Source of the DNA: a virus
Length of the DNA stretch: 44,609 bases
Reading direction: 5' to 3' (one strand)
Virus record (IMG/VR): IMGVR_UViG_3300033146_001798
Coordinates: 1 to 44,609 of that record
The translations under genes were made by a program, and so were the position numbers. How positions within the stretch are numbered: position 1 is the first letter of the stretch; every line of letters begins with the position of its first letter. Under the pieces are notes generated by a model. That model was not told the DNA's origin, did no database searches, and saw only the letters and a program-made list of their open reading frames with translations. Below, in pieces: positions 843 to 27,215 of this stretch.

Positions 843-3524
843 TTACCCGAACATATCACTAATATCAACTTTTTTAAATTTCATTTCTTCAACAATATCA
901 TATCCAATTGCAGTAGTCAATATATTAACTGGAGTCAACATTGCTTTTTCAAATTGAACTTGATAATCAATATATTCAGATAGTTTAAAATAATCTAAAA
1001 ATTCACCTTTAAACGAAAACACATTTTCATTATTCATTACATTAGGGACTTTTAAATAAATAAATTTAATTTTATCAGCACTATAAATTGGAATAACATA
1101 ATCCATATCATGTTTATTAATATACCAATTATGTAACAAACTACCTCTTACATGGATTGGAGTTCTTAAACCATATATTTTTTCATCATCTTGATATTTT
1201 TCTAAATTATTTACCGACCTTGGAAATGATATTTTATCAACTGACATATTAAAAAATTCTTTTTTATATTCTTTTAAATCCTTTATTAGATAATCTTTAT
1301 CATTATCAAATAAATCCCATAATATTTCTTTTAATTTAGTTCTTACAACCTGTGGTGTTGAACTTCTGACTATTTCAATACCAGTTACTTTTAATTCTGG
1401 TTTATCAAGCCAATATCCATCTTCAATCCATTTTCTAACAACATATTTCTTTTTCTTTACCCAGATACCAACATCACCTATTAATTCATTACCCATTACC
1501 ATAGTGTTTTTATAATAATTTAATTTATCTTGTAATTCATCTAAAACCGTTTTAATCATTGGTTCAATCTTTTCTTTACTATATTTTTCAACTAATTGAA
1601 CTGTTTGTTTTTTTGTAAATTCTTTATTTGGATATTTTTTCTTTATTTTATTTATCATATTGGTACATGAAAAAAAAACACTGTCCGTATCACAATAAAC
1701 CGAATATACCATTCCTTTTAATCTTTTTACCACTTCTTGTTCTACATATTTAATAGTTAATTGTCCAGAAGTTGTAATACCTTCGGCAACATCAATATCA
1801 AAATATCTAAAATAATTATTTGCAAAAGCACCATAACCAGAATTTATCAAAATTTTAAGTGCCATCTGTTTTAAATGAAAACTTACCAATAGTTTTTTAT
1901 CTTTTTCATCAAACATTAATTTACGTGTTGCAACCCTTAAATTATATTTTTCTTCCATTGCTTCACCAATAATTCCTTGCTTATTTCTTCTCCAAAACTT
2001 CAAATTTGGTGTCATACTTAAATCATGTTTTTTTAACAAACTTAAATCTATTTTATCATTCAATACTAACTTATTAAAATGATTAAAAACCCAATTACTA
2101 TCTTTTATGTCTTTATCATAAACTCTTCTTTTTATAAATCTATTTATAAATCCTTTTATTTTATTCCAAAAACTTTTCTTAATAGTTGGTGTTTCGTATT
2201 CAACACTACTTTCAAATTTCGATAATATATTATCTTTTATTTCTTGTGGTATATCATCATATTCAACTTTAGTTTCGGTACTCATATTATGCCCAATTGC
2301 TAAATTTGGATATAGTGAATTTAAATCAAACATTGTTAAATTTTCATGCTTACCAATTTTTGGTTGTTTTACAAATGCACCTGGATATGGTATCTTAATA
2401 CTGTTTTTTTTCTTTGGAATTATTTCTTTATTTTGCTTCTTTAGTTTATTATACATCAATACATCCCAAACAACCAAAGTTCCAAACACATCATCAAAAG
2501 TAATACCAGTTTCATATGCTAATGTAAAAGCCAATTCAATCAATTGCATTTTTTCATTCAATTGATAAACCAACTCAACATCTTTAATATTATAATCAAT
2601 AAATAATTGATTGTTATCATCATATAAATCATTTAATGTACCATCGAATTTTACTTTTCTTGCACCTAATTCAGTCTCCGATATAAAATCTAATGTATAT
2701 GATTCCCTTGTAATATAAGTGAATTTTTTATAAAGGTCGATATAATCCAAATTTGTTATATTAATATCAAAATAGTCAATCTCTTTTTTATTAACATAAT
2801 GTGTTTTTGCTTTAGCTGAATTAATTGGACTCATTTTTCTTACATAACTAATTCCAAGAATATTATTAATTCTATTAGTCAAATATGGCATATCAAACAA
2901 CTTAGAATTCCAACCTGTAATCACATCTGGTTTCAACTTCTGAAACATTTTAACAACATATTCTAATAACTGTTCTTCATCTTCACAATGCTTGTAACAA
3001 ACGTCTTTTTTATCAAACTTAATGTCTATGTCATTAAATTCTTTTTCAAGCACTGTAGAGGCTATTTCATAAGGTTTCAAGCCAAATGTATATATTTTTT
3101 TAGTTCTTGAATCTTTAATTGTAATTGCATTTATTTCATGGTCTGCCTCTGATGGGTCTGGAAACTTTCCATCATTTGAATATATCTCTATATCAATATA
3201 AAAAGTTCTAATATTTTTTAAATTATAAAAATCTTTTTGTTGACCATAATGTTTATAGATATACTGATAAATTGGGTCTATGTTTCCATATATACTTAAT
3301 CTATCATTATACTCTTGGATAAAATCATAAAAATTAGGTATTGTTTTAGTTAATTTTTTTAATGGTACACCATCAGAACTAATATATGATGTATCATTAT
3401 TAGTATCATTTCTTAAATATAAATCTGGTTTAAAATCAGTTGTGGTTTGAAACCTTTTACCTTGAGCATCATAACCTATTTCAACTAAATGTTTATAATT
3501 TTTTACAAATATTTGTGTGTACAT
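843..3524 (-). CDS. 43: Family B DNA polymerase, T4 gp43-like
   Basis: An 893-residue replicative polymerase with proofreading exonuclease, very close in length to T4 gp43 (898). Exonuclease motifs are visible: YIDIEIYS (Asp111/Glu113), NSKLFDMPYL and YNIKDVELV. Polymerase motif A is DLNSLYPNL, motif B includes KILINSGYGAFANNY, and motif C is YCDTDSVFF. The gene is a single uninterrupted reading frame, whereas several T4 relatives carry split polymerases or introns here. The start codon follows a good ribosome binding site (AAGGAGATTAA). It lies between two methyltransferases, in a replication and modification block. Known role of the family: copying the phage chromosome with a clamp and clamp loader, which are not in this window. 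Confidence 0.97.
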   Translation of the reverse strand: MYTQIFVKNYKHLVEIGYDAQGKRFQTTTDFKPDLYLRNDTNNDTSYISSDGVPLKKLTKTIPNFYDFIQEYNDRLSIYGNIDPIYQYIYKHYGQQKDFYNLKNIRTFYIDIEIYSNDGKFPDPSEADHEINAITIKDSRTKKIYTFGLKPYEIASTVLEKEFNDIDIKFDKKDVCYKHCEDEEQLLEYVVKMFQKLKPDVITGWNSKLFDMPYLTNRINNILGISYVRKMSPINSAKAKTHYVNKKEIDYFDINITNLDYIDLYKKFTYITRESYTLDFISETELGARKVKFDGTLNDLYDDNNQLFIDYNIKDVELVYQLNEKMQLIELAFTLAYETGITFDDVFGTLVVWDVLMYNKLKKQNKEIIPKKKNSIKIPYPGAFVKQPKIGKHENLTMFDLNSLYPNLAIGHNMSTETKVEYDDIPQEIKDNILSKFESSVEYETPTIKKSFWNKIKGFINRFIKRRVYDKDIKDSNWVFNHFNKLVLNDKIDLSLLKKHDLSMTPNLKFWRRNKQGIIGEAMEEKYNLRVATRKLMFDEKDKKLLVSFHLKQMALKILINSGYGAFANNYFRYFDIDVAEGITTSGQLTIKYVEQEVVKRLKGMVYSVYCDTDSVFFSCTNMINKIKKKYPNKEFTKKQTVQLVEKYSKEKIEPMIKTVLDELQDKLNYYKNTMVMGNELIGDVGIWVKKKKYVVRKWIEDGYWLDKPELKVTGIEIVRSSTPQVVRTKLKEILWDLFDNDKDYLIKDLKEYKKEFFNMSVDKISFPRSVNNLEKYQDDEKIYGLRTPIHVRGSLLHNWYINKHDMDYVIPIYSADKIKFIYLKVPNVMNNENVFSFKGEFLDYFKLSEYIDYQVQFEKAMLTPVNILTTAIGYDIVEEMKFKKVDISDMFG

Positions 3525-3538
3525 TTAATCTCCTTATT

Positions 3539-4300
3539 TTAAAAATATTCATTCATAATTGTTTTTTGTTTCTTTTCTATATTATTTATTCTATCATTTG
3601 ATATATTAAAATACTTTTTATCAATTTCAATACCTATAAACTTTCTATTTAGGTTTTTACAAGCAACTCCTGTACTTCCAGAACCCATAAATGGGTCTAA
3701 AATAGTTTGATTTTTATTTGAAGAATTTCTTATTAATATTTCCAATAATTCTAATGGTTTCTCAGATGGGTGAATTTTGTTACCAATTATATTATCTATT
3801 TTAAGTATAGTTTTAGTCCCCATATTATTTATACTTTTTGCACCACCAAATCTGAATAATAATATAAATTCACAACTCTTCATATAATACTTATTCGGTG
3901 TACAGTTGTTTTTCTCCCACACCAATATATTCAAAAGTTTTAAGTTGTTTTTACTTGCCTCGTTTAATATGTTTTGAACATTTCTGTCATTTGACATAAT
4001 ATAAACGTGACATCTATCATTACATAAGTGTTGAAGTTTTGGTATCCATTCATAAAAATTTATATTGTTGTACTCAAATTGAGTCCCATTCTTTAATGTA
4101 ACTGGAATCGAACCTTCATCTTTTTTTAACCACTTATTACTACAATTTGTACCATCTGAAACAATTTGTCCATCCTTAATCGAAACACCACCACTAATAG
4201 TCTTGTAAGGAGGGTCTGTAATAATTGCATCTACCTTAACACCATCTTTTATCAATCTGTCCATCACTTCTAAACAATCACCATTTATTAAATTTATCAT
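3539..4300 (-). CDS. DNA methyltransferase (beta-class N6-A/N4-C)
   Basis: A 253-residue protein beginning MINLINGDCLEVM. Motif IV is DPPYKT near residue 29, and the C-terminal part has HPSEKP followed by motif I, LDPFMGSGSTG, then a GIEID segment. The order IV, target recognition region, I defines the beta class. Compared with its paralogues it has an intact catalytic DPPY and complete motif I, so it should be active. The protein ends EKKQKTIMNEYF, nearly the same tail as the MTase at 9273-10061 (KKQKTIMNLI), which suggests duplication within the genome. It follows the polymerase gene by 14 bases upstream and is 2 bases from the transglycosylase gene. A role in protecting phage DNA from restriction is inference. 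Confidence 0.9.
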   Translation of the reverse strand: MINLINGDCLEVMDRLIKDGVKVDAIITDPPYKTISGGVSIKDGQIVSDGTNCSNKWLKKDEGSIPVTLKNGTQFEYNNINFYEWIPKLQHLCNDRCHVYIMSNDRNVQNILNEASKNNLKLLNILVWEKNNCTPNKYYMKSCEFILLFRFGGAKSINNMGTKTILKIDNIIGNKIHPSEKPLELLEILIRNSSNKNQTILDPFMGSGSTGVACKNLNRKFIGIEIDKKYFNISNDRINNIEKKQKTIMNEYF

Positions 4301-7158: not shown

Positions 7159-9273
7159 TTAAGTAATTATCATCTTACTAAACACATCTTTTTCAATCAC
7201 TATTTGTTGGTCAAAATCTCTTGAATAATTTTCTTTATTATGTGATATTATAAATATGTCTTGTCCATTTCTTGTAAACATTTTTAACATATCTATTAAG
7301 TCAGAGGCTCCCTGTGAGTCAATACTCCCATCCAATACTTCGTCAAAAATTAATAGATTAGTTGAAGCAGTATTTTTCATTGATACAAAATTAGCAAAAG
7401 TAAACAAAATTGATAAATCCACCCGTAATTTTTCACCACCAGAAAAACTATTATAATCTAAATCCTCGCCTTGCCTATAATGTATTTGGCAGTCTAAAGT
7501 GGAATTAAAAATAACTGAATATTCTGCACCAAATAAAGTTAAATATTCATTTACCTTTTTATTCAGAAAACCTAAATGTTTTGAAACAACATATGATTTT
7601 ATTCCATCATCTGCTAATAATTGCGTTATTACACTAAAATATTTATTCTTTAATTCCCTTTTTTTCAATACATTTCTTGTTTTTTGAATATCAGACCTGT
7701 GATTATCTAATTTATTTTCTAACTCTTGAATCTCTATTAAACCTTCAATTTTATTATTTTTCTTATTATTAAAATCTTCTTTTAACCTATTAATATCTTT
7801 TTTAAACATATTCATATTATTGACATTACGCTCAATACTGGCATTATAATTTGTTATTTTATAAGATAAATCTTCAACCTCTTCCAATGAAGATTGAAGT
7901 GTTTCTAAATGTTTTACTAATTTATGTTTGCCTTTTGATATTTTAATTATTTTTTCATCTTCAATCTCTTTAATTTCATTCTTTAATTCATCTATTTTTT
8001 CGATGTTATCATTAATATTATTATTTAATACCACACCCTGGTTAGTAAATTCTGATATTTGTTCGTCTTTATCTTTTGTTAATTTATCAACTTTTTTCTT
8101 TTTCAGTTTTTCAATTTTATCAATAGTTTTTTCATTTTCAGATTTAATATTATTATAATCAGCAATGTGATTTTTTATATGGTCATCACTTATATTGTTA
8201 CCACAAGTAGGACATTTAGCTGGATTCATCTCATAGAATTTTATCTTTTCATTAGCGTCTTCTATTTTATTTTCATTATTTATTGTTTTTTTATCATAAG
8301 TATTTATAATATCTACAATCTCTTTATCTACGGTTCTTCTGTATTCACTTTCATCTAACCTTGTTTTTCCTATTTTTTCTTGCAGTCCTATATTCAAATC
8401 ATCATATGTAGTTATTTTTTTATCAATATCATTTAATTTTTTCATATATAATTTATCTATAGATTCAGCTATCATATTTTTTTCTATATTAATCTGGGTA
8501 ATTTCATTTCTAATAATATCAAGTGGTTGATATTTACCTAATTCATCTTCCATTTTTATTATCTTATTTTTAAAATCAACATTTTTCTCTTTATATAAAT
8601 TAAATTTATCTTTTAATTCAATCAATTCATTCTTAATAGATTTTAAATTCCTTTTGTGATTATGTTTAACATTATCATTGTGTTTATTTGCCCTGTCTAT
8701 TTCATCTTTAATAGATTCTGTTTTTGATAAAACCAACCTCACATCATTTTCTTCATCAACTTGTTTTTCTTTACTTTTTTTAACCTTATTTTTATGAATA
8801 ATTTTCATATCATCAATAGTATCAAGTTCCATTAATTGGTTAATAATTTCTCTCTTCTTTTCCAAAGGGAGCTGTAAAAAAGGGATAAAATAGCCACTAC
8901 CTAATATTGTTATTTGTCTAAAGATTTTTTCATCGAAAGAAAGGATTGATTCTAATGTCAATTGGTCTTCTTTTTTACCTTGAGAATCCAACACTTTACC
9001 ATTTTCTTGAATTTCAAATATTTCTGGTTTCATACCTCTTTTAACTATATATTGTTTATTATTATTTCCAATAAATTCTATTTCAACTAATAGTTTTTTC
9101 TTATTAATCCTATTAATTAATTTAGAATTATTTACTTTTCTATATGGTCTTCCAAACAGAACATAATTAAATGCGTCAATTAAATTTGATTTTCCAGCAC
9201 CATTCTTGCCAGTAATTAAAGATAGTTTATTTTCATTTAACAATATTTCATTTTTTTGGTTTCCATATCCCAT
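7159..9273 (-). CDS. 46: Recombination nuclease ATPase subunit, gp46 (Rad50/SbcC-like)
   Basis: A 704-residue SMC-like ATPase. Walker A is GKNGAGKSN at residues 22-30. A long coiled coil carries a zinc-hook motif CPTCG near the middle, then signature FSGGEKLRVDLS and Walker B LLIFDEVLDGS, with a final HN pair in IISHNKEN. With gp47 the family resects DNA ends and helps degrade host DNA. Odd point: the frame begins MGYGNQKN, so the first beta strand (about 15 residues before the T4 equivalent) is missing. The ATG overlaps the stop of the upstream methyltransferase (TAATG). Upstream in-frame codons lack a start and do not resemble the missing strand. This may reflect the arrival of the methyltransferase gene. 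Confidence 0.93.
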   Translation of the reverse strand: MGYGNQKNEILLNENKLSLITGKNGAGKSNLIDAFNYVLFGRPYRKVNNSKLINRINKKKLLVEIEFIGNNNKQYIVKRGMKPEIFEIQENGKVLDSQGKKEDQLTLESILSFDEKIFRQITILGSGYFIPFLQLPLEKKREIINQLMELDTIDDMKIIHKNKVKKSKEKQVDEENDVRLVLSKTESIKDEIDRANKHNDNVKHNHKRNLKSIKNELIELKDKFNLYKEKNVDFKNKIIKMEDELGKYQPLDIIRNEITQINIEKNMIAESIDKLYMKKLNDIDKKITTYDDLNIGLQEKIGKTRLDESEYRRTVDKEIVDIINTYDKKTINNENKIEDANEKIKFYEMNPAKCPTCGNNISDDHIKNHIADYNNIKSENEKTIDKIEKLKKKKVDKLTKDKDEQISEFTNQGVVLNNNINDNIEKIDELKNEIKEIEDEKIIKISKGKHKLVKHLETLQSSLEEVEDLSYKITNYNASIERNVNNMNMFKKDINRLKEDFNNKKNNKIEGLIEIQELENKLDNHRSDIQKTRNVLKKRELKNKYFSVITQLLADDGIKSYVVSKHLGFLNKKVNEYLTLFGAEYSVIFNSTLDCQIHYRQGEDLDYNSFSGGEKLRVDLSILFTFANFVSMKNTASTNLLIFDEVLDGSIDSQGASDLIDMLKMFTRNGQDIFIISHNKENYSRDFDQQIVIEKDVFSKMIIT

Positions 9274-10061
9274 TAAATTAAATTCATTATTGTTTTTTGT
9301 TTCTTTTCTATTAATAATGTGTTTTTAATATCATCAATTCTTTCTTTTGCTATATTAAAATAACCTTTATCAAGTTCAATACCTATAAACTTTCTATTAG
9401 TGTTTTTACAAGCAACACCTGTACTCCCACTTCCCATTGTGAAGTCTAATACTGTCTCATTTTCATTTGTGTATGTTTTGATTAAGTATTCCATTAAAGC
9501 TACTGGCTTTTGAGTTGGGTGAAATTTACTGACTCCTTTTTTACTATCCCTATTATATTTTAAAATTGATATTGGATATACTAATTTAGGATTATAATCA
9601 GTTGAATGTTTATATTTTCCAGTAACAATATTTGTTTCATCTATATTTAAAAATCCTTTCATTGGTTTAGTATTAGTTACATTACTTCTCTTTACCATTT
9701 GTGGATTATAAGTTAATATTTTTTTATAAAATACTGATATATTTTCATGTACTTTACCAAACTGTTTTTTTATTGTAAATGGGTTTGTGGGTTTTTCTTT
9801 TTGCCAGATAATATCATATTTATAATTTTTAATATTACTTACTCTCAATAAACTACTAAAAGGTTCACTTCCAAATAATACTATCGTACCATTCTTTTTA
9901 ATAACCCTATTCAACTGTTCCCACATTAAATCAAAATCAATAACTGAATCCCACTTACAAGCAGTCGTCCCATAAGGAGGGTCTGTAATAATAGCGTCTA
10001 TACTTCCATCTGGAATATTCTTCATCTCTATTAAACAATCACCATTTATTAAATTTATCAT
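9273..10061 (-). CDS. DNA methyltransferase (beta-class N6-A/N4-C)
   Basis: A 262-residue protein beginning MINLINGDCLIEMKN. Motif IV is DPPYGTTACKWD near residue 27, followed by a GTIVLFGSEPF strand. HPTQKPVALMEYL precedes motif I (LDFTMGSGSTG), and FIGIELD follows. This beta-class order matches the MTases at 1-833 and 3539-4300. The ten-residue ends MINLINGDCL and KKQKTIMN are shared with 3539-4300. It ends on top of the gp46 start and begins 1 base after the upstream membrane protein gene, so it is embedded in an operon. It should be catalytically competent; its recognition site is unknown. Confidence 0.9.
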   Translation of the reverse strand: MINLINGDCLIEMKNIPDGSIDAIITDPPYGTTACKWDSVIDFDLMWEQLNRVIKKNGTIVLFGSEPFSSLLRVSNIKNYKYDIIWQKEKPTNPFTIKKQFGKVHENISVFYKKILTYNPQMVKRSNVTNTKPMKGFLNIDETNIVTGKYKHSTDYNPKLVYPISILKYNRDSKKGVSKFHPTQKPVALMEYLIKTYTNENETVLDFTMGSGSTGVACKNTNRKFIGIELDKGYFNIAKERIDDIKNTLLIEKKQKTIMNLI

Positions 10062-16259: not shown

Positions 16260-16542
16260 TATAACCTCTCTATTATTTTCCCATTCATTTCAATATCTTT
16301 TCTCAATTCATCTGACAATTTATACATTTTCCATTTTTTTGGATAAGCTCTCATTATTGGATACTCTTCTTGTAATTATCTTTATTTTTCATATTATAAA
16401 CTTGTATAGATGTTCTATTGCTATTTTTATCTGATACCAAAATAATTAAAAAATCTTTTGGTTTAACCATATCTTTTGATATTTTATCTGGTGTATATTT
16501 TTCGTTTAATATAGAATAAAAAAGTTGGTGGAATGTTTTCAA
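16259..16542 (-). CDS. Tagged hypothetical protein, frameshifted
   Basis: The first frame (16542 to 16354) starts MKTFHQLFYSILNEKYTPDK, a tag variant with LNE at 12-14, and stops after NYKKSIQ. In the -1 frame the sequence continues as LQEEYPIMRAYPKKWKMYKL and then a charged helix to the stop at 16259-16261, directly before the next gene. The change would fall near 16373-16376. A missing base in the sequence or a recent mutation is the simplest explanation. With the repair the protein has about 93 residues. It begins 1 base from the end of the gene at 16544. Confidence 0.6.
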
Positions 16543-16543
16543 T

Positions 16544-16843
16544 TTATAAACCTAATGATTTGGCTTTTGTTTTATCCCAAACAACTTTCAATTTACCAGA
16601 AGAACCTTTTTTAACACTTGTCCAAGGTGAATTATCACCAAAAACATTCCACCAACTTTTTCTTCTCAATTCGTCCATTTTTTCATATAATTTTCTCATT
16701 TTTGGTGATGCCGAACCATAATATACACCAAACATCGCATTTGTTAATTCAACCATAAATTCAGCATCATCTTGACTTGGATATTTAACACCCTCTTCTA
16801 AACTTTCATTACCATTTTCATTCATCATTTCTTTAAATTTCAT
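16544..16843 (-). CDS. Tagged putative internal protein, 99 aa
   Basis: Starts MKFKEMMNENGNESLEEGVK; LEE at 15-17 fits the protease rule. The cargo contains DAEFMVELTNAMFGVYYGSA and RKSWWNVFGDNSPWTSVKKG, rich in tryptophan, with a basic C-terminus. No family is recognised. A ribosome binding site AAAGGAGAATTAAA supports the start. Confidence 0.72.
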   Translation of the reverse strand: MKFKEMMNENGNESLEEGVKYPSQDDAEFMVELTNAMFGVYYGSASPKMRKLYEKMDELRRKSWWNVFGDNSPWTSVKKGSSGKLKVVWDKTKAKSLGL

Positions 16844-17927: not shown

Positions 17928-18566
17928 TTACTCTTCAAAATATTTTTTTAAACTTTTTCTAACTTTATCATTTCTTAATTCATTTTCTTTGACTATTTTA
18001 TCCAATTCATCAAAATTTAACTCAAATGAATTATTCTGTCCTACTATTTCATTATATGGTTTAAAAAATGCGTTACCTTCTTTATCTTTACCAATAATAC
18101 ATTCCTCATCAACATATTTATTTATTTTTCTATCTATTTTTTCTTTATTTAATTGTTCTTTATTCCAGTATTGTTTATAAGAGTTTTCCATATAAGTACT
18201 AATATAATTAAAAGCACTGTGTTTTGGGTTATAATTATGCATATATTTTAAACAATATTCAATACCTAACATCATTGCATCATCTTTAATTGGGGAATAT
18301 CTAACATTAGCCCTGCTAAAATAATTTTTACCAATAAGTAATATTAACTCACCAAGCCTATCTGATACTTGTGGAAACTTATGTTGTTTATCTATTTTTT
18401 CTTTTTCTTTGATATAATTGGCAGTATCTACTTCATATTTTTTCTTTAATAGATTAATTTGTTTATTTATTTTAACATCTATTTTTTCTTTTTCGTGACA
18501 ATAACAAATCAATTCCTGTTTCAGTTCTTCAGCATCAATGTAGTTTCCATTATTTTTCCATTTCAT
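17928..18566 (-). CDS. 55: Late-transcription sigma factor, gp55-like
   Basis: A 212-residue protein (T4 gp55 has 185). The region FPQVSDRLGELILLIGKNYF, then KDDAMMLGIEYCLKYMHNYN and SAFNYISTYMENSYKQYW, follows the T4 gp55 pattern for sigma region 2: a helix, an aromatic segment, and helix-turn with N-Y-x-x. The N-terminal part is a lysine/glutamate coiled stretch not found in T4. The family binds host RNA polymerase and reads TATAAATA late promoters with the sliding clamp. At least nine such elements occur in this window, including one upstream of this gene itself (18604-18597), so late expression may reinforce itself. Confidence 0.85.
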   Translation of the reverse strand: MKWKNNGNYIDAEELKQELICYCHEKEKIDVKINKQINLLKKKYEVDTANYIKEKEKIDKQHKFPQVSDRLGELILLIGKNYFSRANVRYSPIKDDAMMLGIEYCLKYMHNYNPKHSAFNYISTYMENSYKQYWNKEQLNKEKIDRKINKYVDEECIIGKDKEGNAFFKPYNEIVGQNNSFELNFDELDKIVKENELRNDKVRKSLKKYFEE

Positions 18567-18625: not shown

Positions 18626-21600
18626 TTATACCGATTTTATCAGTTTATTTATATCAATTCCTTCAATATCTAATAAATTTATCCCCTCGAATTTAAGTTT
18701 TGTATAATTGTGTGTGATATTGCTTTTTTTCTGTGAAAGTATTTTATTTCTTAATATATATAAAGCCTTATACTTTTTTTTTAACCAACACATTCGTTTT
18801 TGAATAAATGTACTTATTGTATAGTTAAACTTATATTTGAGACTTTCAATATCATTATAGAATTGTTTTATTTTATGTTTGATAGTTCTATATATATCAT
18901 TGAACCAATCTAAAGATAAATTCTTATCTTCAAGCTTGTCTTGAAGATTGTCTTCGGTAGAAGACAATAATGTCATTTTCTTAATAAATTCCCATTCAGT
19001 ATAATGTATCTCTTGATTTTGTTTACTTGCATATAATGAAGTATAAGTTAAAACATTTGGTGTTACATAGTTAAGTTCATGTAGATATTGTAATAAATTA
19101 TCTGATATAATCAAGTAAATATTCTTAACATTTTTATGTTTTCTATAACCTGCTAATCTACCTAATGCTTGTTGTGTTTTGTCTATAATAACATCTTTTT
19201 TAGCCATTTCAGTTAATTCATCCGAATTTAATCTATTATGTATATATTGATGTCTTTCTGTTGAAGTAAACACTCTATTTTCTTCATTTTCAATATCTTT
19301 TATTTCATTTTCACACATTGGTACATATATTGCTTTTTGACTATCAATTTCATTTGGGTGTGGATTAGTAATAACAATAGCAATATTTTCTTTTTGGTTT
19401 AGTTTATTAAAAGTTTGCACAAACTTATTACTACCTTTATTATTTTTTAAATTCCATTTCTGACCAACACCATTCATTATAATGTTTTCTTTCTTCACAT
19501 CCAATTCTTTCATTATATTTTCAATTACAAAGAAACCTTTTTGTTTTCCTTTTAATACTTGCCCATTTTTAGATTGAGAATTCAATGATTGTACTCCTAT
19601 TATTTTTATATTATCTGTTAATATTCTATGTGATATATCAAAATAATTATTTTCATAACTTTTATTGTAACTAGCTATCATTTTTATTGGGGCAGTTTCT
19701 GTAGTATAGGCAATAATATTTAAAAAAGGAACTTCCCACCATTTATTAAAAAATTCTTTTTTTGTTAATACATTTACATTATTGGTATAAGATTCTAAAG
19801 TATAAGTGTCTGGTGTATTATTTACAGCATCATTAATTAATGTAATAAATGATTTGCTATTTGAACTTGTTACTACTTTATATGAATTAAATAAATCTGG
19901 TATGATTTCGTCCATATGTGCAATAATAGGAGATACACCATCGTGTAATTCACTTATTAAACTTACCATTGTAGCAAATTTATGATGTGTTGTAAGTATT
20001 ATTTTATCTTTTTTAATTATGTTTGAAATTTGATTATTATAAAAGATTAATATTGCTTCTTTTTCATTATCATTTAAATCTTTGTTTTTATCTAAAAATT
20101 GTTTAAGACCACTGTTAGATGTTATTATGTCAGCCTTTTCATCATCTGATAAATCTTTATTTTTTATAACTTCTTTATTAGATATTATTTTTTTATTTTC
20201 TTTTGTCCATTTAGAAGAGTATTTTTTTAATAACTTTTTATTATGTGTACTTTTTACTTGAGTGAATTCTAAATGGTTTTTTGAAATATTATTTATGTGT
20301 TCTTTATCATTTTCATTCCATTCAACTATTTCTTCAATATAACTTTTATTATATTGATAAGCTATTTTATTTATTAGTTTCATTAAATCTTTAGAATTTA
20401 AACCTCTATTTTCTGCAATAACATTTGCTATTATATCCATATTACTAAATAATATAATATGTTCTTTTCTTTGTGTATTTAGTATCTGATTAACTTCTTC
20501 TTGTCTTTTTTTATCAGGTGATAAAAAGAAATCACCTTTTTTAATAATCCTTAAGGCACCATACGATTTTCCTGTACCTTCATTATCACGAAACATGTAT
20601 AATTTAGATTTTTCTGGCTCAGCATAAATTTCATTTGTTATTTCAGTTAATAATTCATCAATTTCAGGTACTTTATCATAACAATCTACAGTTTCATTAA
20701 AATTTTGTAAACTATAAGTTAAATTATACTTTTTACCATTATTATCATGTATGGTAGTATCATCATATAGACAATAAACACCTGGATTTTTATCTTTTTT
20801 ATTTCTATAAAATGAAAAAGAACTATTTGAAGGATTTAAATTTTCAGATATTAATTGAGGAAATCTATTATTTACGTGTTTTAAAAAATTAGTAATAGCC
20901 TCTTCATTAATATTAATATTATTATATTCAGATTCAGATTTTTCTTTTATTTTTTTTTTTTTTTTAGTATATTCAAATTCTCTATTATCTATGTTTGATA
21001 TTAATTTTTTTATTTTCTTTTTTGATAATTCACCTTTAGTATTAATTATTATATCATCAATTTTTAAATTCGGTGTCGGACCGAAAAATCTAGCTAAATC
21101 TTTTGCTTTAATATCAGATTGTAATATTTCACTAAAATAATTTGTCAACATTTTATGTATGTTTTTATCTGTTATTATTTGGTCAGTTTTTATATATATA
21201 TGAAATCTATCACAAGTAATACCTTTTTTATCAATTTGATGTGATTTTGATGGAATTATATAATAAGAAACTTCTTCTTTTTTTAATATTTCTATAGCTT
21301 CTTTAATACTTTTTCCATTATCAATGTCAATCATTATTCCAGAAGCCATTTTCCATTTTGTATTTAATCTTCTACCTTGTTTAAATATATTTAAAGAATG
21401 TGTTTGATTTTTAAACATTGGATATAATAATTTTTTTAATTCAGTTTTTGTTGCTTTTGAGTTAAAGCCTTCTAAATTATTAAAAAATTTAAACTTATAA
21501 TCACCATCATTTGTTGTAGAGAAAATAGTTGTTAAATTCTTCTTGTTGGTTTTAGCTTTCATTTTATCAAAAGTTGTTTTTTTCTTTTCTGATGTTTCAT

Positions 21601-21670
21601 TATAATCTAACTTATGATAAAAAGTTGGAATCACTTTTTGATTATGTTTTCTTTGTGCTTTACTATTCAT
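18626..21670 (-). CDS. Primase-helicase fusion (AEP-like primase and P-loop helicase)
   Basis: Start chosen at 21670, where TTGGAGAATAATA precedes MNSKAQRKHNQ; an upstream Met lacks a binding site. The N-terminal third holds an archaeo-eukaryotic primase-like core: GIMIDIDNGKSIKEAI, then SYYIIPSKSHQID, CDRFHIYIKT and DLARFFGPTPN. The second half has P-loop FRDNEGTGKSYGALRI, a Walker B-like IIAHMDEIIPD after ITTHHKFATM, and QALGRLAGYRKHKN as a motif VI-like segment. T4 uses separate gp41 and gp61; fusion here would be a different arrangement. Function by family: primer synthesis and unwinding at the fork. The last 150 residues are helical and of unknown role. Two tandem hairpins lie near its 3' end. 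Confidence 0.75.
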   Translation of the reverse strand: MNSKAQRKHNQKVIPTFYHKLDYNETSEKKKTTFDKMKAKTNKKNLTTIFSTTNDGDYKFKFFNNLEGFNSKATKTELKKLLYPMFKNQTHSLNIFKQGRRLNTKWKMASGIMIDIDNGKSIKEAIEILKKEEVSYYIIPSKSHQIDKKGITCDRFHIYIKTDQIITDKNIHKMLTNYFSEILQSDIKAKDLARFFGPTPNLKIDDIIINTKGELSKKKIKKLISNIDNREFEYTKKKKKIKEKSESEYNNININEEAITNFLKHVNNRFPQLISENLNPSNSSFSFYRNKKDKNPGVYCLYDDTTIHDNNGKKYNLTYSLQNFNETVDCYDKVPEIDELLTEITNEIYAEPEKSKLYMFRDNEGTGKSYGALRIIKKGDFFLSPDKKRQEEVNQILNTQRKEHIILFSNMDIIANVIAENRGLNSKDLMKLINKIAYQYNKSYIEEIVEWNENDKEHINNISKNHLEFTQVKSTHNKKLLKKYSSKWTKENKKIISNKEVIKNKDLSDDEKADIITSNSGLKQFLDKNKDLNDNEKEAILIFYNNQISNIIKKDKIILTTHHKFATMVSLISELHDGVSPIIAHMDEIIPDLFNSYKVVTSSNSKSFITLINDAVNNTPDTYTLESYTNNVNVLTKKEFFNKWWEVPFLNIIAYTTETAPIKMIASYNKSYENNYFDISHRILTDNIKIIGVQSLNSQSKNGQVLKGKQKGFFVIENIMKELDVKKENIIMNGVGQKWNLKNNKGSNKFVQTFNKLNQKENIAIVITNPHPNEIDSQKAIYVPMCENEIKDIENEENRVFTSTERHQYIHNRLNSDELTEMAKKDVIIDKTQQALGRLAGYRKHKNVKNIYLIISDNLLQYLHELNYVTPNVLTYTSLYASKQNQEIHYTEWEFIKKMTLLSSTEDNLQDKLEDKNLSLDWFNDIYRTIKHKIKQFYNDIESLKYKFNYTISTFIQKRMCWLKKKYKALYILRNKILSQKKSNITHNYTKLKFEGINLLDIEGIDINKLIKSV
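18926..18968. repeat. Two adjacent perfect hairpins inside the primase-helicase gene
   Basis: ATCTTCAAG (18926-18934) pairs with CTTGAAGAT (18940-18948). ATTGTCTTC (18947-18955) pairs across a four-base loop with GAAGACAAT (18960-18968). They overlap by two bases. Neither is followed by a T tract. Confidence 0.6.
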
Positions 21671-22439
21671 TATTATTCTCCAATAATTCTTTTTCATTTT
21701 CTTCTACATGTTTTTTATAATGTTCTTTTTTATTAATGATTTTAGTGGAATTTATTAAAATATTTTTGTTTTTAATAATATTATCTAATAAATTCCATCT
21801 TGGATATTCTTTTTTAAATTCTTTTCCTAACCAACTGTACATTGTTTTTATTACTGGTTTGTTATTTTTTAATGCTAAATAAAAATATTCCTTATAAAGG
21901 TGTTGATATTTATCTGCATGTTGGTCAAATGTTATATCTGAGTAATTAATTATTTTAATTAATTTATTTTTTATATTTTTATTTTTTAAATTTTCAGGTA
22001 TATATATCAAATTTAATTTTACAATATTTATTTTTATCTGGTTATAAATATTATCTACTTGGTTCATAAAAGATTTTATAGCATTATCTTCTATTTTTGT
22101 TTTTAATAATTTATTTATTTTTTCTTCGTTTTGTAATAATAATCCATAATATAAAAATAACATATCTATTTGTTTTTTAATTATAGTTTCATAATCAAAT
22201 AAAATTCTATTTATTTCTTTTTTAAGAATTATTTGATTATTATTATTTAATTTAGACGTAAAAGTGTTTAAATTATTAATTGTTTTGAAAATTAAAGTCT
22301 TTAAATATAACACTTCTTTCATTTTTAAATGATATGATTTAAATTTATCATCTTTAAACTCTTCAGTATCCATTAATATTTGATATTCTGGATAATCCTC
22401 AATATTAATAATATCACAAATTGTTAATTCTTTTTCCAT
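21663..22439 (-). CDS. Helical hypothetical protein, 258 aa, under structured leader control
   Basis: Starts MEKELTICDIINIEDYPEYQ. The chain is almost wholly helical and rich in Asn, Lys and Ile, with heptad-like stretches (LNTFTSKLNNNNQIILKKEI, MNQVDNIYNQIKINIVKLNL). The C-terminus has IKTMYSWLGKEFKKEYPRWN, a conserved-looking aromatic motif. No family is recognised. It overlaps the primase-helicase start by 8 bases, so both are probably translated from one mRNA and may work together at the fork. Its 5' leader (22442-22530) can form a pseudoknot with its ribosome binding site, and a perfect sigma70 promoter lies just before. Confidence 0.7.
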   Translation of the reverse strand: MEKELTICDIINIEDYPEYQILMDTEEFKDDKFKSYHLKMKEVLYLKTLIFKTINNLNTFTSKLNNNNQIILKKEINRILFDYETIIKKQIDMLFLYYGLLLQNEEKINKLLKTKIEDNAIKSFMNQVDNIYNQIKINIVKLNLIYIPENLKNKNIKNKLIKIINYSDITFDQHADKYQHLYKEYFYLALKNNKPVIKTMYSWLGKEFKKEYPRWNLLDNIIKNKNILINSTKIINKKEHYKKHVEENEKELLENNNE

Positions 22440-22441
22440 AT

Positions 22442-22530
22442 TAGGTCTCCTTATGGTTTAAAATTAACTAATCATCGGGAGACCAATCCTGCCATTGAAG
22501 GCACGAGTAATTAGTTAATTCCAAAACCAT
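22442..22530 (-). ncRNA. Pseudoknot-like 5' leader (riboswitch-like), sequestering the SD
   Basis: Read on the minus strand from the predicted start near 22530. P1: AUGGUUU (22530-22524) pairs with AAACCAU (22459-22453). P2: AAUUAACUAAU (22520-22510) pairs with AUUAGUUAAUU (22472-22462), eleven perfect pairs. P3: UGCC (22503-22500) pairs with GGCA (22493-22490) over a six-base loop. In the large loop, GGUCUCC (22484-22478) is a perfect seven-base complement of GGAGACC (22450-22444), the ribosome binding site of the gene at 22439. That forms an H-type pseudoknot that would block translation. I could not match it to a known riboswitch class. The ligand or protein is unknown. Confidence 0.7.
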
Positions 22531-23106: not shown

Positions 23107-24396
23107 TTAGAATTCAAATATAGATTCAAATTCTTTATCTTCTTTTAATAAATTTTTAAATATATGACAAATAACATCAACTGTCCAAGAGTTTCCTATT
23201 AGTTTGTAACGTTGGGACGAACTAATATCAACTATTTCATTTTTTTCATTTATTCCTTTAGCTGTGTGTCCATCATCAATGTTTATATGGAATAATATAT
23301 TTTTTACTTTTATTTTTTTTTGAATGTATCCAATGATGGCAAATTTTGCAAACCAATATAATGTTATTAGGGTTGTTTCTATGCTTTTTCGATGCAAATG
23401 AAATAATGTGGTGTAAATGGAATTGTTGTCCTTTAGAGTGTTTAAATTTTTCTCCACATACTCTACAAGTAGCATTATCTCTTTTCCATACATCTTTAAT
23501 ACATTGTTTCCATTCTTTAGTAGTTGAGTTTTTTTCTCTTTCTGAAGAAATTCCACCTTTCCATTGTTTTGAATTAACCCCTCTATTATATTTATAAAAA
23601 CATTTGAGTCCACAAAACCCTCCTCTGTGTCGGGATAAAGGAACATTTTTTTGTTTTCCACATTGAGTACATTTAAATGTTTTTCTTTTAGATTGTCCTT
23701 TGTGCATTTTTTTGTTTGATTCGGTGTCTGCATATCTACATTTTTTTGAACAATATTTTTTGTTGACACTTGGTTTTTTATAATATTTGATACCACATAT
23801 TTTGCATATTCTTTCAATTCTTTTTTTTCTACATTCAAAACAAGTTTTTGCAACTTGGGACATTTTGTTTCCACAAATCGGACAAGGTTTTTTAGATGGT
23901 CTAAGCATAATTGTATTATAATACATTTTTTGTTTTTTGTCAATGTTTGAAGTCTTTCGCATTCGATTGGAGTTAATTTTCTCCAAGTTAAATTACTTGA
24001 ATTCATATCTTCTACAATTTTTGTTTTACTTTCACATCCTTGTGATGGTAAAGTTCCATGTTTTCCATTTTGATAAAATATTCTTTGGTCTTGTGAATTA
24101 TGCCTTTTATTATTTATATCAAATTGGACGTAATTCTGTTTTATATCAACATCTTCTATGTTTAAATTATTAACAACTATAGTACCATCAGATGCTGGAT
24201 TCCCATTGACTGGTTTTTCTACTATAACATTATCTTTTTCAACACTTGTTAATGTATTAGATTTTTCATCACTTCTTAATTCTAATTCTTGTGTAGTTAA
24301 TCCAGCAGTTTTCATTTTTCCATCTTGTCTAATACCATCAATTTTATACCTACCACGAAAAGCACCACAAACAATCTCTTTAGTATTTTTTTCCAT
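23107..24396 (-). CDS. C-terminal half of a cytosine-5 DNA methyltransferase with HNH insertion
   Basis: The frame begins MEKNTKEIVCGAFRGRYKID and carries WRKLTPIECERLQT (motif VIII/IX border, near residue 139) and, near the C-terminus, SQRYKLIGNSWTVDV (motifs IX/X). It lacks motifs I-VIII, which lie in the 25743-27215 gene. Between LQT and DDGHTAKG an insertion of about 665 bases carries a complete HNH gene in another frame (23276-23908). Unusually, the methyltransferase frame stays open through the whole insertion, adding about 220 low-complexity residues between LQT and DGHT. Whether the pair of halves gives an active enzyme is doubtful unless spliced or reassembled. It starts 2 bases after the radical-SAM stop. 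Confidence 0.8.
   Translation of the reverse strand: MEKNTKEIVCGAFRGRYKIDGIRQDGKMKTAGLTTQELELRSDEKSNTLTSVEKDNVIVEKPVNGNPASDGTIVVNNLNIEDVDIKQNYVQFDINNKRHNSQDQRIFYQNGKHGTLPSQGCESKTKIVEDMNSSNLTWRKLTPIECERLQTLTKNKKCIIIQLCLDHLKNLVRFVETKCPKLQKLVLNVEKKELKEYAKYVVSNIIKNQVSTKNIVQKNVDMQTPNQTKKCTKDNLKEKHLNVLNVENKKMFLYPDTEEGFVDSNVFINIIEGLIQNNGKVEFLQKEKKTQLLKNGNNVLKMYGKEIMLLVEYVEKNLNTLKDNNSIYTTLFHLHRKSIETTLITLYWFAKFAIIGYIQKKIKVKNILFHINIDDGHTAKGINEKNEIVDISSSQRYKLIGNSWTVDVICHIFKNLLKEDKEFESIFEF
23276..23908 (-). CDS. HNH endonuclease with zinc fingers, inserted in the methyltransferase gene
   Basis: Start chosen at 23908 (MLRPSKKPCPICGNKMSQ), about 210 residues. Three zinc-finger-like Cys clusters follow one another (CPICG with CFEC; CKICG with YCSKKC; CTQCG with FCGLKC), then an HNH domain: CRVCGEKFKH, FHLHHIISF, NNIILVCKICHHWIHSKK, with the two-His core, Asn and final His. 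Such genes are typical free-standing homing endonucleases. The flanks carry a 9-bp direct repeat (TCAATGTTT at 23276-23284 and 23940-23948). A perfect sigma70 promoter ends only six bases before the ATG, so its transcript would be leaderless. Confidence 0.88.
   Translation of the reverse strand: MLRPSKKPCPICGNKMSQVAKTCFECRKKRIERICKICGIKYYKKPSVNKKYCSKKCRYADTESNKKMHKGQSKRKTFKCTQCGKQKNVPLSRHRGGFCGLKCFYKYNRGVNSKQWKGGISSEREKNSTTKEWKQCIKDVWKRDNATCRVCGEKFKHSKGQQFHLHHIISFASKKHRNNPNNIILVCKICHHWIHSKKNKSKKYIIPYKH
23915..23943 (-). promoter_or_regulatory. Perfect sigma70 promoter TTGACA-N17-TATAAT for the HNH gene
   Basis: TTGACA (23943-23938), 17-base spacer, TATAAT (23920-23915) on the minus strand. 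The ATG of the HNH gene lies six bases after the -10, implying a leaderless or nearly leaderless mRNA. Confidence 0.75.
24350..24381. repeat. 32-bp direct repeat flanking the radical-SAM gene, copy 1
   Basis: The 32 bases at 24350-24381 recur exactly at 25674-25705. On the minus strand they encode KEIVCGAFRGR, once at the start of the C-terminal methyltransferase half and once in the remnant after the N-terminal half. Confidence 0.85.
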
Positions 24397-24398
24397 GA

Positions 24399-25535
24399 TT
24401 AACCTTCAAACATATTTTGAATATCAATTTTTTTAAATATTTTTTTGGTATTATTTTTAATAACTTCATTTATTGTTAAATTTTTGTTTTTTTGACTTCT
24501 TGAAAAATTACATAAAACTTTCCCTAATTCGGAAGATATAATTGAAGAATCTGTTTTATATGAATCTGTTCTAGTATTACCTAGAATTTTATAATCTTTT
24601 AACACTTCTGTACCACAACATTCACCACTACAACCCCCAACCATTTCATTATCGGCTGAAAAATATTTTAAATCATATTTTTCAGCATATTTTTCTGCTA
24701 AACTAATATATTCAGATTTGTTTTTTAATAATTCATAATCAGAACCAGTATTTACACCATATTTCTTGTAATAATCCCTTAAATCAAATTTTAAATAATT
24801 ACTCATAGTTTTAAATATTTCTTGTTCATGTTTAGGCATCGATATTCTAATTTTTAATCCCTCTGTATTAAAAGCCCATACACCAGATTTTTTAGCTTGT
24901 TTTAATAAATCTTCCATATCATCTAGTATTTTTGGGTAAATTGCTGGTTGAATTTTAATCATTACTGGAATACCTTTATCAGTTATTTTTTTAATAGCAC
25001 TTAATCTTTTTTTTGCAGATGGTGCAGATGGTTCAAATACTTTTAAAAACTTCTCATCAGTAGAAATTAATGTAACTGCAATTGTCCAATTTGGTTTTTT
25101 AAACTCGTCTATATAAGATAATAATACTTCTGGATTTTTTGTTTGTATTTCAACTGGGTAATTATACTCATGTAATACCTTTAAAATATTTTTAGTAATA
25201 TGCTCTGTTTTTTCAATAGGTGGAAATGGGTCTGATGTAGCACCAATTTTTAATGGAATTCTTTCTTTAAATGCAACCTCTTCACCTTTTGAATAATCAT
25301 AGTTTTTATTTAAGGTTCTTTCAATCCAATTTTTTAATAAATCATGTCTGTTACCTTCAAGATATGCAAAAGTGCTTTCTATACCAGTTCTATTTCTTCT
25401 AGCAAAAGTTACAAAATCTCTTGCAAAACAATATTGACAATTATAAACACAACCTCTATAACTATCCATATGAAAAGGTATAGGACAAATCGTAAATTGT
25501 GATGTTAAACTCGGCTTCCAAAATTTTTTAACCAT
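24399..25535 (-). CDS. Radical SAM protein, SPL-like
   Basis: A 378-residue protein with the iron-sulphur motif CVYNCQYC (Cys29, 33, 36) near the N-terminus, preceded by CPIPFHMDSYRG. Downstream are GATSDPFPPIEKTE and VEIQTKNPEVL, the strands of the partial TIM barrel, and a C-terminal Cys cluster GGCSGECCG. The order resembles the spore photoproduct lyase-like (Rv2578c) branch of radical SAM enzymes. A GAGGAGA site precedes the ATG. Substrate is unknown; repair or modification of nucleic acid is plausible given the neighbours. It splits the methyltransferase gene and is bounded by 32-bp direct repeats of it. Confidence 0.85.
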   Translation of the reverse strand: MVKKFWKPSLTSQFTICPIPFHMDSYRGCVYNCQYCFARDFVTFARRNRTGIESTFAYLEGNRHDLLKNWIERTLNKNYDYSKGEEVAFKERIPLKIGATSDPFPPIEKTEHITKNILKVLHEYNYPVEIQTKNPEVLLSYIDEFKKPNWTIAVTLISTDEKFLKVFEPSAPSAKKRLSAIKKITDKGIPVMIKIQPAIYPKILDDMEDLLKQAKKSGVWAFNTEGLKIRISMPKHEQEIFKTMSNYLKFDLRDYYKKYGVNTGSDYELLKNKSEYISLAEKYAEKYDLKYFSADNEMVGGCSGECCGTEVLKDYKILGNTRTDSYKTDSSIISSELGKVLCNFSRSQKNKNLTINEVIKNNTKKIFKKIDIQNMFEG

Positions 25536-25742: not shown

Positions 25743-27215
25743 TTACTTTTTTTCATCTTTCCTTATATTTAATTGTGGTTCTGCACCTTGAACCCTAACA
25801 TAAGGTGTCATTCCACCACCTTCACCCATAGATGCTGACAATGTACTACTTTTATCTGTTCCAATATAAGCATTTTTTTGTGAACTACCTATTAACAAAG
25901 TATCTGGTTTAATTTTATCTGATAAATTGTTATTTATTACTTTCGGAGAATTAATACCTAACAATGTTGGAGATTTTCCATCTTCATTATATGTTCTGTT
26001 GTTCATATCAAATGTACTATCTTTTATTTCCCATTCAAGAATAGATTTATCAAATATATCTGGAATGTTTAATAAGGTTTTTAACTTTAACCATATTTCA
26101 GAATCAGGAATAGCAAAAGAATTATCAGACCTAAACCAATGTTCTACTTTTGTTTTTACTATATTTAATTTTTCAGATATTTCTTTTATTGTAAGTTTTG
26201 ATTGTTTTTTACTTTCTTTTAAAGTTTGTTTTAATAATGAAATATCTACTTCGTATTTTCTTACTTTAACTTTTTCAATTATTTTTTCTGTTTGTATGGT
26301 ATCATTACCTTTTATGTTTGCTTTGCCTACTTGGATGCAACCAATCATTGTTCTCTGTTTTTTTTCAATACTATTCCAAGCAACTGCACCATCATATCTT
26401 GCTGTTATACAAAATGATTTACCATTTGTTGTCATTCTATTATCTATTATATTATCTATTATATCTATACCTCTGGCAAGTTTATATTGACTTGCAAATA
26501 TAGTAGAAGATTTATCATCACCAGTTTTTATTTTACTTTTATATCCATTTTTACCATCATTTAATGAACCGTCAAATAAATCTGATTTATTATTTGTTTC
26601 TAATATATCTTTTAACACTATTCCTTTATCTTTAGGTTGTGATATTCTATACCCAGTAAAAGTTTTTGTATCACCTTGAATATTGGTCCAGTATAAACGT
26701 TTTCTGTTCTGGGCTGAAAGTAAAGCAGAATTAATCAAAACAGGTTCAACACCAATAGCTTTTGTAATTATCTTTTTCCATTTCTGTATCATAACAACAT
26801 TTTCAAGTAAAAAATATTTTGGTTTTAATTCTCTTAATAATCTTATATATTCCCAAAATAAATATGATTGACCTTCAAATTCAAAACCCTTTTCTTTCAA
26901 ATCTAAATAACTTTCTAAATTGGTAATTTCTAAATTTGAAATGGTTGTCATACCTTTTCTTTTACCAGAAAAACTGAAATCGGTGCAAGGACTCCCACCA
27001 ATTAATAAATCTATTTTTGGTAAATCTTTTGATATTATTTTACTAACATCACCAAGTTGTATAGTATTAGGGAAATTATATCGTGTTACTGAAATAGCAT
27101 ATTTATCAACTTCAGAAGCATAATAATTATCAAAATCAATACCTATTCTGTTCAATGCTAATTGACCAGCACTTAAACCATCGAATAAACTTAATACATT
27201 TTTTATTTTTTTCAT
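25743..27215 (-). CDS. N-terminal half of a cytosine-5 DNA methyltransferase (motifs I-VIII)
   Basis: A 490-residue protein beginning MKKIKNVLSLFDGLSAGQLA (motif I). It has catalytic motif IV GGSPCTDFSFSG (Cys77), motif VI FLLENVVM (138-140) and motif VIII AQNRKRLYWTN. The target region embeds a helix-turn-helix-like segment LTIKEISEKLNIVKTKVEHW with WFRSDNSFAIPD, and repeats of a module like R-x-Y-x-x-D-G-K-S-P-T-L. It ends with MGEGGGMTPYVRV and a stop, so motifs IX and X are missing and lie 1.4 kb downstream. A TATAAATA late promoter lies directly upstream. It may be an inactive remnant or may act with the separate C-terminal half. Confidence 0.85.
   Translation of the reverse strand: MKKIKNVLSLFDGLSAGQLALNRIGIDFDNYYASEVDKYAISVTRYNFPNTIQLGDVSKIISKDLPKIDLLIGGSPCTDFSFSGKRKGMTTISNLEITNLESYLDLKEKGFEFEGQSYLFWEYIRLLRELKPKYFLLENVVMIQKWKKIITKAIGVEPVLINSALLSAQNRKRLYWTNIQGDTKTFTGYRISQPKDKGIVLKDILETNNKSDLFDGSLNDGKNGYKSKIKTGDDKSSTIFASQYKLARGIDIIDNIIDNRMTTNGKSFCITARYDGAVAWNSIEKKQRTMIGCIQVGKANIKGNDTIQTEKIIEKVKVRKYEVDISLLKQTLKESKKQSKLTIKEISEKLNIVKTKVEHWFRSDNSFAIPDSEIWLKLKTLLNIPDIFDKSILEWEIKDSTFDMNNRTYNEDGKSPTLLGINSPKVINNNLSDKIKPDTLLIGSSQKNAYIGTDKSSTLSASMGEGGGMTPYVRVQGAEPQLNIRKDEKK

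Follow-up and report, generated by a model that had tools for sequence, protein, structure and literature searches.

Some translational riboswitches sequester the Shine-Dalgarno sequence (SD) in their expression platform, and in preQ1-II and SAM-II a loop pairs with it; the closing stems of known switches are short. In erm-type attenuators a ribosome stalled early on the leader has the opposite effect to switching expression off. Leaders processed by RNase III, an enzyme that needs a helix of about 22 bp, include those of lambda N and the T7 early sites, and 5' terminal hairpins are well established as stabilisers of mRNA. T4-like phages place replication proteins and genes of the late sigma factor type under translational control (PMC3014915). 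In T4 gene 32, a pseudoknot of ~28 nt lies ~67 nt upstream of the AUG and serves as the nucleation site for gp32; it is followed by an unstructured region of UUAAA repeats, and the SD stands in that unstructured stretch (PMC535899, PMC3014915). The operator of T4 gene 43 is a hairpin-loop of 16-18 bases with a UAAC loop that overlaps the ribosome binding site (PMC3014915).

The leader analysed here resembles these systems in part. It shares with the gene 32 operator a T4-like phage, a structured leader on a replication mRNA and possible autogenous control, but its SD pairs with a loop, a pseudoknot is sterically barred and the first gene has no match to gp32. The preliminary description had likened the layout to that of gene 32. 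The likeness fails, because the T4 pseudoknot is far upstream of an SD region that is itself unstructured, and the locus has neither a gp32 gene downstream nor a distant ~28-nt pseudoknot with UUAAA repeats. As with gene 43, a replication gene of a T4-like phage has a hairpin just 5' of its ribosome binding site, although here the hairpin is a branched structure of 78 nt with an alternative fold that hides the SD, and the gene is not gp43. Like SD-sequestering riboswitches, the leader has an anti-SD in a loop and exclusive folds that expose or hide the SD; unlike the known ones, it has no Rfam match, no known ligand and no conserved core elsewhere, and its closing helix, at 22 bp, is very stable. 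The arrangement also recalls a common bacterial scheme in which an upstream hairpin keeps the anti-SD away from the SD.

The virus and its replication operon

The window, that is, the whole stretch of DNA analysed (44,609 nt, or 44.6 kb; virus record IMGVR_UViG_3300033146_001798), is very AT-rich, with 24.7% GC. Its T4-type genes, all on the minus strand, encode a DNA polymerase (gp43, 843-3524), gp46/47-like proteins, a gp55-like late sigma factor, a UvsW-like helicase, a portal protein, a gp4-like end protector and a major head protein. The relatives found for the head protein share no more than ~41% identity with it, so the virus sits on a long branch; it is a very AT-rich T4 relative from a deep, unsampled branch of the T4-like phages. 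The window also contains two paralogous DNA methyltransferase genes, both phrog_67 (3539-4300 and 9273-10061, minus strand), and a perfect 21-nt inverted repeat, AAAAAGTTGGTGGAATGTTTT, at 16519-16539 and 16641-16661, with its arms 101 nt apart.

The promoter, the leader and the genes behind it are as follows.

22564-22536, minus strand: consensus sigma70 promoter, TTGACA-17-TATAAT, 12/12 match
22440-22530, minus strand: 5' untranslated leader of 91 nt, from the predicted start to the base before the AUG at 22439
21663-22439, minus strand: first gene, 258 aa, basic product (pI ~9), orphan
18626-21697, minus strand: second gene, 1023 aa, overlapping the first, primase-like
17928-18566, minus strand: late sigma factor of T4 gp55 type, phrog_234

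Residues 105-216 of the second protein resemble a phage protein annotated as a primase (PriCT-1; 33% identity), and a GTGKS motif in the same protein suggests a fused NTPase. Comparison of the first product with PHROG, Pfam, NCBIfam and PDB gave no gp32 match, and the AlphaFold models of the first and second proteins (pLDDT 41 and 32) were too poor for use. GC skew between 18000 and 23000 is about -0.10 to -0.19, while the genes immediately on the left of this stretch have -0.25 to -0.42; the weaker skew of the first two genes would fit a replication module acquired from elsewhere.

Only two perfect (12/12) sigma70 promoters occur in the window, and the leader promoter is one of them; the upstream gene ends in a stop codon (TGA) that overlaps its -35 box. 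Transcription is predicted to start at A22530, the sixth base after the -10 box and the first base of the outer stem of the leader. This agrees with the preliminary description, which had placed the transcript start at that stem base behind a perfect promoter, with the proviso that the start is predicted from promoter position and that 22528-22530 are all possible. No intrinsic terminator was found near the leader. Control by antisense RNA of the plasmid type was considered and rejected, the best plus-strand promoter between 22250 and 22950 matching at no more than 9/12 positions.

The other perfect promoter belongs to an HNH endonuclease gene (23276-23908, minus strand, 211 aa, PF01844) whose ATG stands at +1. 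This gene is embedded in a cytosine-5 methyltransferase gene (23107-24396, minus strand), in its C-terminal part, with motif IX (ECERLQTL) on one side and motif X on the other. Across the HNH gene the methyltransferase frame has 0 stops, where 5,000 synonymous resamplings averaged 7.6 and never gave 0. The HNH gene has the look of a mobile insert with dual coding, the open frame being maintained by selection; Rfam gave no intron match at the insert. The methyltransferase itself appears split into an N-terminal part (25743-27215) and the C-terminal part already mentioned, both on the minus strand, with a radical SAM gene (24399-25535) between them.

A branched hairpin at the predicted 5' end

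RNA folding places the leader in a hairpin that leaves the SD open, which we call the ON fold. Its parts, all on the minus strand, are listed here.

22453-22530: ON hairpin, 78 nt, branched
22530-22524/22459-22453: P1, outer stem, 7 bp
22522-22508/22474-22460: P2, second stem, 15 bp, made of 11 bp extended by G-U and further pairs
22487-22506: P3 (22506-22505/22488-22487 and 22503-22500/22493-22490), common to both folds described below
22475-22486: P4 (UUGG/CCGA, loop UCUC), formed in the ON fold only and containing part of the anti-SD

The three stems of 7, 11 and 4 pairs described earlier are thus all present, the second extending to 15 pairs and the inner one to 6. P1 and P2 stack into a single 22-bp helix, interrupted by one bulged base, U22523, and the helix opens into a three-way junction with P3 and P4. 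The folding energy of the leader is ~-30 kcal/mol (z = -4.4 against dinucleotide shuffles), and the fold ranks first among 3,562 segments of 95 nt from both strands, whether raw or GC-corrected; in a phage genome of 25% GC, a plain scan for the best fold leads directly to a candidate regulatory leader. Openness of the SD in the ON fold is 0.83, compared with a median of 0.66 in the window. An inverse thermometer was also considered and set aside: P1 needs more than ~50 C to melt, and at every temperature tested the ON fold remains the favoured one.

A structure of this kind might act at the level of DNA, its inverted repeats serving as an operator for a protein or belonging to a replication origin. 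The repeats are symmetric in DNA too, they adjoin replication genes, and the GC skew of the module differs from its surroundings. Against this, the transcribed strand folds clearly better than the opposite one (-31.2 vs -25.3), there are no iterons and no reversal of skew at the site, and the structure begins precisely at the predicted RNA start; we regard a DNA element as the least probable of the explanations considered. Alternatively, the stem might be an RNase III processing site, cut in the early mRNA to free a message with its SD near the new 5' end. The 22-bp helix with its one bulge is of compatible length, and a long near-perfect stem 5' of an early phage gene is also what the lambda N and T7 early leaders have; unlike at those sites, however, there is no known cut site, the sequence bears no mark of one, and the complement to the SD, which such processing leaves unexplained, would be superfluous. 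Processing by RNase III therefore seems to us highly unlikely.

A loop complementary to the SD and two exclusive folds

What sets the hairpin apart is a loop segment that matches the SD.

22484-22478, minus strand: anti-SD, GGUCUCC, loop segment
22450-22444, minus strand: SD region, GGAGACC, 4 nt before the AUG

The sequence bears out the perfect seven-base match between loop and SD that had been pointed out before. Among shuffled leaders, 0.28% contain the exact 7-nt SD complement and 1.1% a complement to any 7 nt that cover the SD, which puts the chance of such complementarity at p ~0.003-0.01. The match runs past GGAGA, which is common in this phage, into CC, which no other SD in the window has. 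Nowhere else among the window's genes with a recognisable SD is the SD matched by a 7-nt complement, and no further copy of GGTCTCC or GGAGACC exists in the window. Structure and SD complementarity are both real, and both are unusual for this genome.

The preliminary description had joined the stems and the loop-SD pairing in one pseudoknot. Geometry forbids this. The linker from the outer stem to the SD is 2 nt (AA), and the loop is at the far end of a 22-bp helix that, at the ~2.8 Angstrom rise per pair of A-form RNA, is ~60 Angstrom long; by calculation from standard geometry, ~60 Angstrom would have to be spanned and ~20 could be bridged. All the stems and the pseudoknot therefore cannot coexist, and a closed outer stem rules out loop-SD pairing. 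Once P1 opens, the linker grows to 9 nt and a pseudoknot becomes possible, at an estimated ~-21 to -24 kcal/mol (computed stem energies of -19.4 and -11.6, plus the usual initiation penalty of ~7-10 kcal/mol). Under the same condition a nested hairpin that sequesters the SD, at -26.0, is more stable. The better model is one in which the pseudoknot gives way to two mutually exclusive nested hairpins, the second of which we call the OFF fold.

22444-22484, minus strand: OFF sequestrator hairpin, GGUCUCC/GGAGACC (7 bp) with two short helices, excluding P1 and P2
22475-22473/22455-22453, minus strand: first extension of the OFF hairpin, AUG/CAU
22471-22468/22461-22458, minus strand: second extension, UUAG/UUAA

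The computed folds thus have the property expected of a bistable leader, an anti-SD that pairs with the SD in a fold excluding the upstream hairpin. The ON fold is the ground state, at -30.4 kcal/mol, against -26.0 for the OFF fold with the seven loop-SD pairs forced and P3 unchanged. The two differ by 3.3-4.4 kcal/mol when the RNA ends anywhere from +88 to +136. At +151, which takes in 60 nt of coding sequence, the gap falls to 1.0, the SD then being partly covered by pairs with the coding region. The Turner 2004, Turner 1999, Andronescu and Langdon parameters all favour the ON fold at 20-45 C, and at 37 C the gap over these four sets is 4.1-8.6 kcal/mol, about 7-9 in some. The earlier proposal that the leader can hide the ribosome binding site therefore stands in part: the leader is structured and contains a segment able to hide the SD, but it does not do so through a pseudoknot, and its predicted ground state exposes the SD.

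Two further computations bear on how the OFF fold might be reached. The lowest refolding saddle found (-8.2 kcal/mol) lies ~22 kcal/mol above the ON fold and ~18 above the OFF fold, and when growing transcripts are folded, P1 and P2 have closed before the SD is synthesised. On these computations ON would be the default, and OFF would need an agent that holds or removes the 5' strand. Trimming the 5' end by up to 7 nt changes little, loss of 10-12 nt tips the balance, and once at least 14 nt are gone the probability of the sequestrator is 0.99. We also permuted the pairs of the hairpin in 3,000 randomisations that keep it: 2.2% had an SD-hidden state equally near the ground state, a figure that is not independent of the 7-nt match, and 13% had an OFF energy as low. 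The rarity of the second fold (p 0.022, modest) is suggestive, not strong.

The main rival to a translational switch is a plain stabilising hairpin, which would constitutively shield a strong early mRNA from 5'-dependent decay with the SD open, the complement being a coincidence of a C/U-rich loop. The role is a familiar one for 5' terminal hairpins, all the parameter sets make the ON fold, with its SD open, the ground state, and the high barrier makes unaided switching unlikely; given a gap of 7-9 kcal/mol in some sets and a barrier of ~22 kcal/mol, the OFF fold may never be populated. A coincidence must nevertheless account for a 7-nt match that reaches into the CC missing from the window's other SDs, at a chance probability of 0.003-0.01, and a hairpin serving as a stabiliser would have no need of a three-way junction with GC-rich loops. 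A merely protective hairpin is, in our judgement, unlikely, if still a serious candidate.

A possible translational switch

We tentatively propose that the leader may be a bistable translational control element whose default is ON, a reading that the modelled folds make quite possible, though short of probable. In its favour, the operon behind the leader, with its replication proteins and late sigma factor, belongs to the sort that comes under translational control in T4-like phages (PMC3014915). RNA from the strong early-type promoter would first fold into the 22-bp 5' hairpin with the SD single-stranded, and the replication operon would be translated by default. In the hairpin GGUCUCC would stay partly paired in P4, and the 3' strands would be unavailable to the sequestrator. 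Occupation or loss of the 5' strand, over roughly its first 14 nt or more, could let those 3' strands refold; GGUCUCC would then pair with the SD and translation would stop. Because of the high barrier, the choice would be made during transcription or by an active agent; candidates are a nuclease, a ribosome at the 5' AUG and a bound protein, the last of which might be the basic first product of the operon itself, giving autogenous feedback. We infer from the computed folds that both may form in the cell, that translation would respond to them and that a trigger of this kind would act.

One form that this control might take is a co-transcriptional sensor of the 5' end, by which the mRNA would read whether its own first ~14 nt are free. 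An intact, free end would give the ON hairpin; the SD would end up buried if a nuclease trimmed that end, or if an early phage protein or a ribosome at the leaderless AUG held it. We consider such a sensor a long shot.

A leader-peptide attenuator would assign the opening of the 5' strand to a ribosome on a short frame that begins at the transcript start.

22468-22530, minus strand: possible leaderless ORF of 20 codons, MVLELTNYSCLQWQDWSPDD, from AUG to a UAG in the 3' strand of P2; a weak candidate

An early stall on this frame would hide the SD, and a ribosome reaching the stop would cover the anti-SD and so expose the SD. The AUG lies exactly at the predicted start, with 20 open codons before the UAG, and occupation of the 5' strand does flip the fold. 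The ATG at +1 of the window's other perfect promoter (HNH gene, 23908) means that leaderless starts may be used in this phage. As in erm-type attenuators, there would be a short leader frame and exclusive hairpins, one of them hiding the SD. The frame is poorly supported, however: its codon score of -5.5 is under the 5th percentile of real genes, its GC3 is 0.42 against 0.14 in the genome, an ORF of at least 20 codons is expected with P = 0.26 given an AUG, and the AUG is buried in a stable stem. In addition, an early stall would switch expression off, the opposite of erm. We think this attenuator very improbable.

The preliminary description could fit the leader to no class known to it, and the Rfam 15 covariance models gave 0 matches to the leader at gathering score and only chance-level ones at E up to 10. 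Neither the leader nor the first protein had a homolog in searches of IMG/VR, INPHARED, PLSDB and a genome collection, with the reservation that these searches depend on exact matches to peptides or to short DNA stretches, and relatives at a moderate distance would escape them. Blastn of the leader against phages and plasmids gave chance matches only, and the exact pseudoknot pattern does not occur in viral contigs. The core pattern had 28 matches in 257 Gb, where ~30 are expected by chance, none with the architecture of the leader, and a single-sequence model of low power matched nothing in 398 genomes of one bacterial phylum and ~30 virus records. A new riboswitch class would show a conserved aptamer core and covarying stems across many genomes, and these low-power searches yielded nothing of the kind; a riboswitch that binds a ligand is neither favoured nor disfavoured. 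The first and second proteins, compared with plasmids, phages and viral contigs, gave matches in the primase-like region alone (~30-35% identity); the replication module is absent from the related T4-like contigs to which the capsid protein led, and no tRNA or tmRNA was found. The function proposed for the leader is accordingly one that we infer from a single sequence.

Overall, the analysis corrects a pseudoknot reading into a testable switch between two folds, which remains a single-sequence prediction while no relative is known. If real, it would add a translational switch in front of the replication module in a deep, unsampled branch of the T4-like phages.
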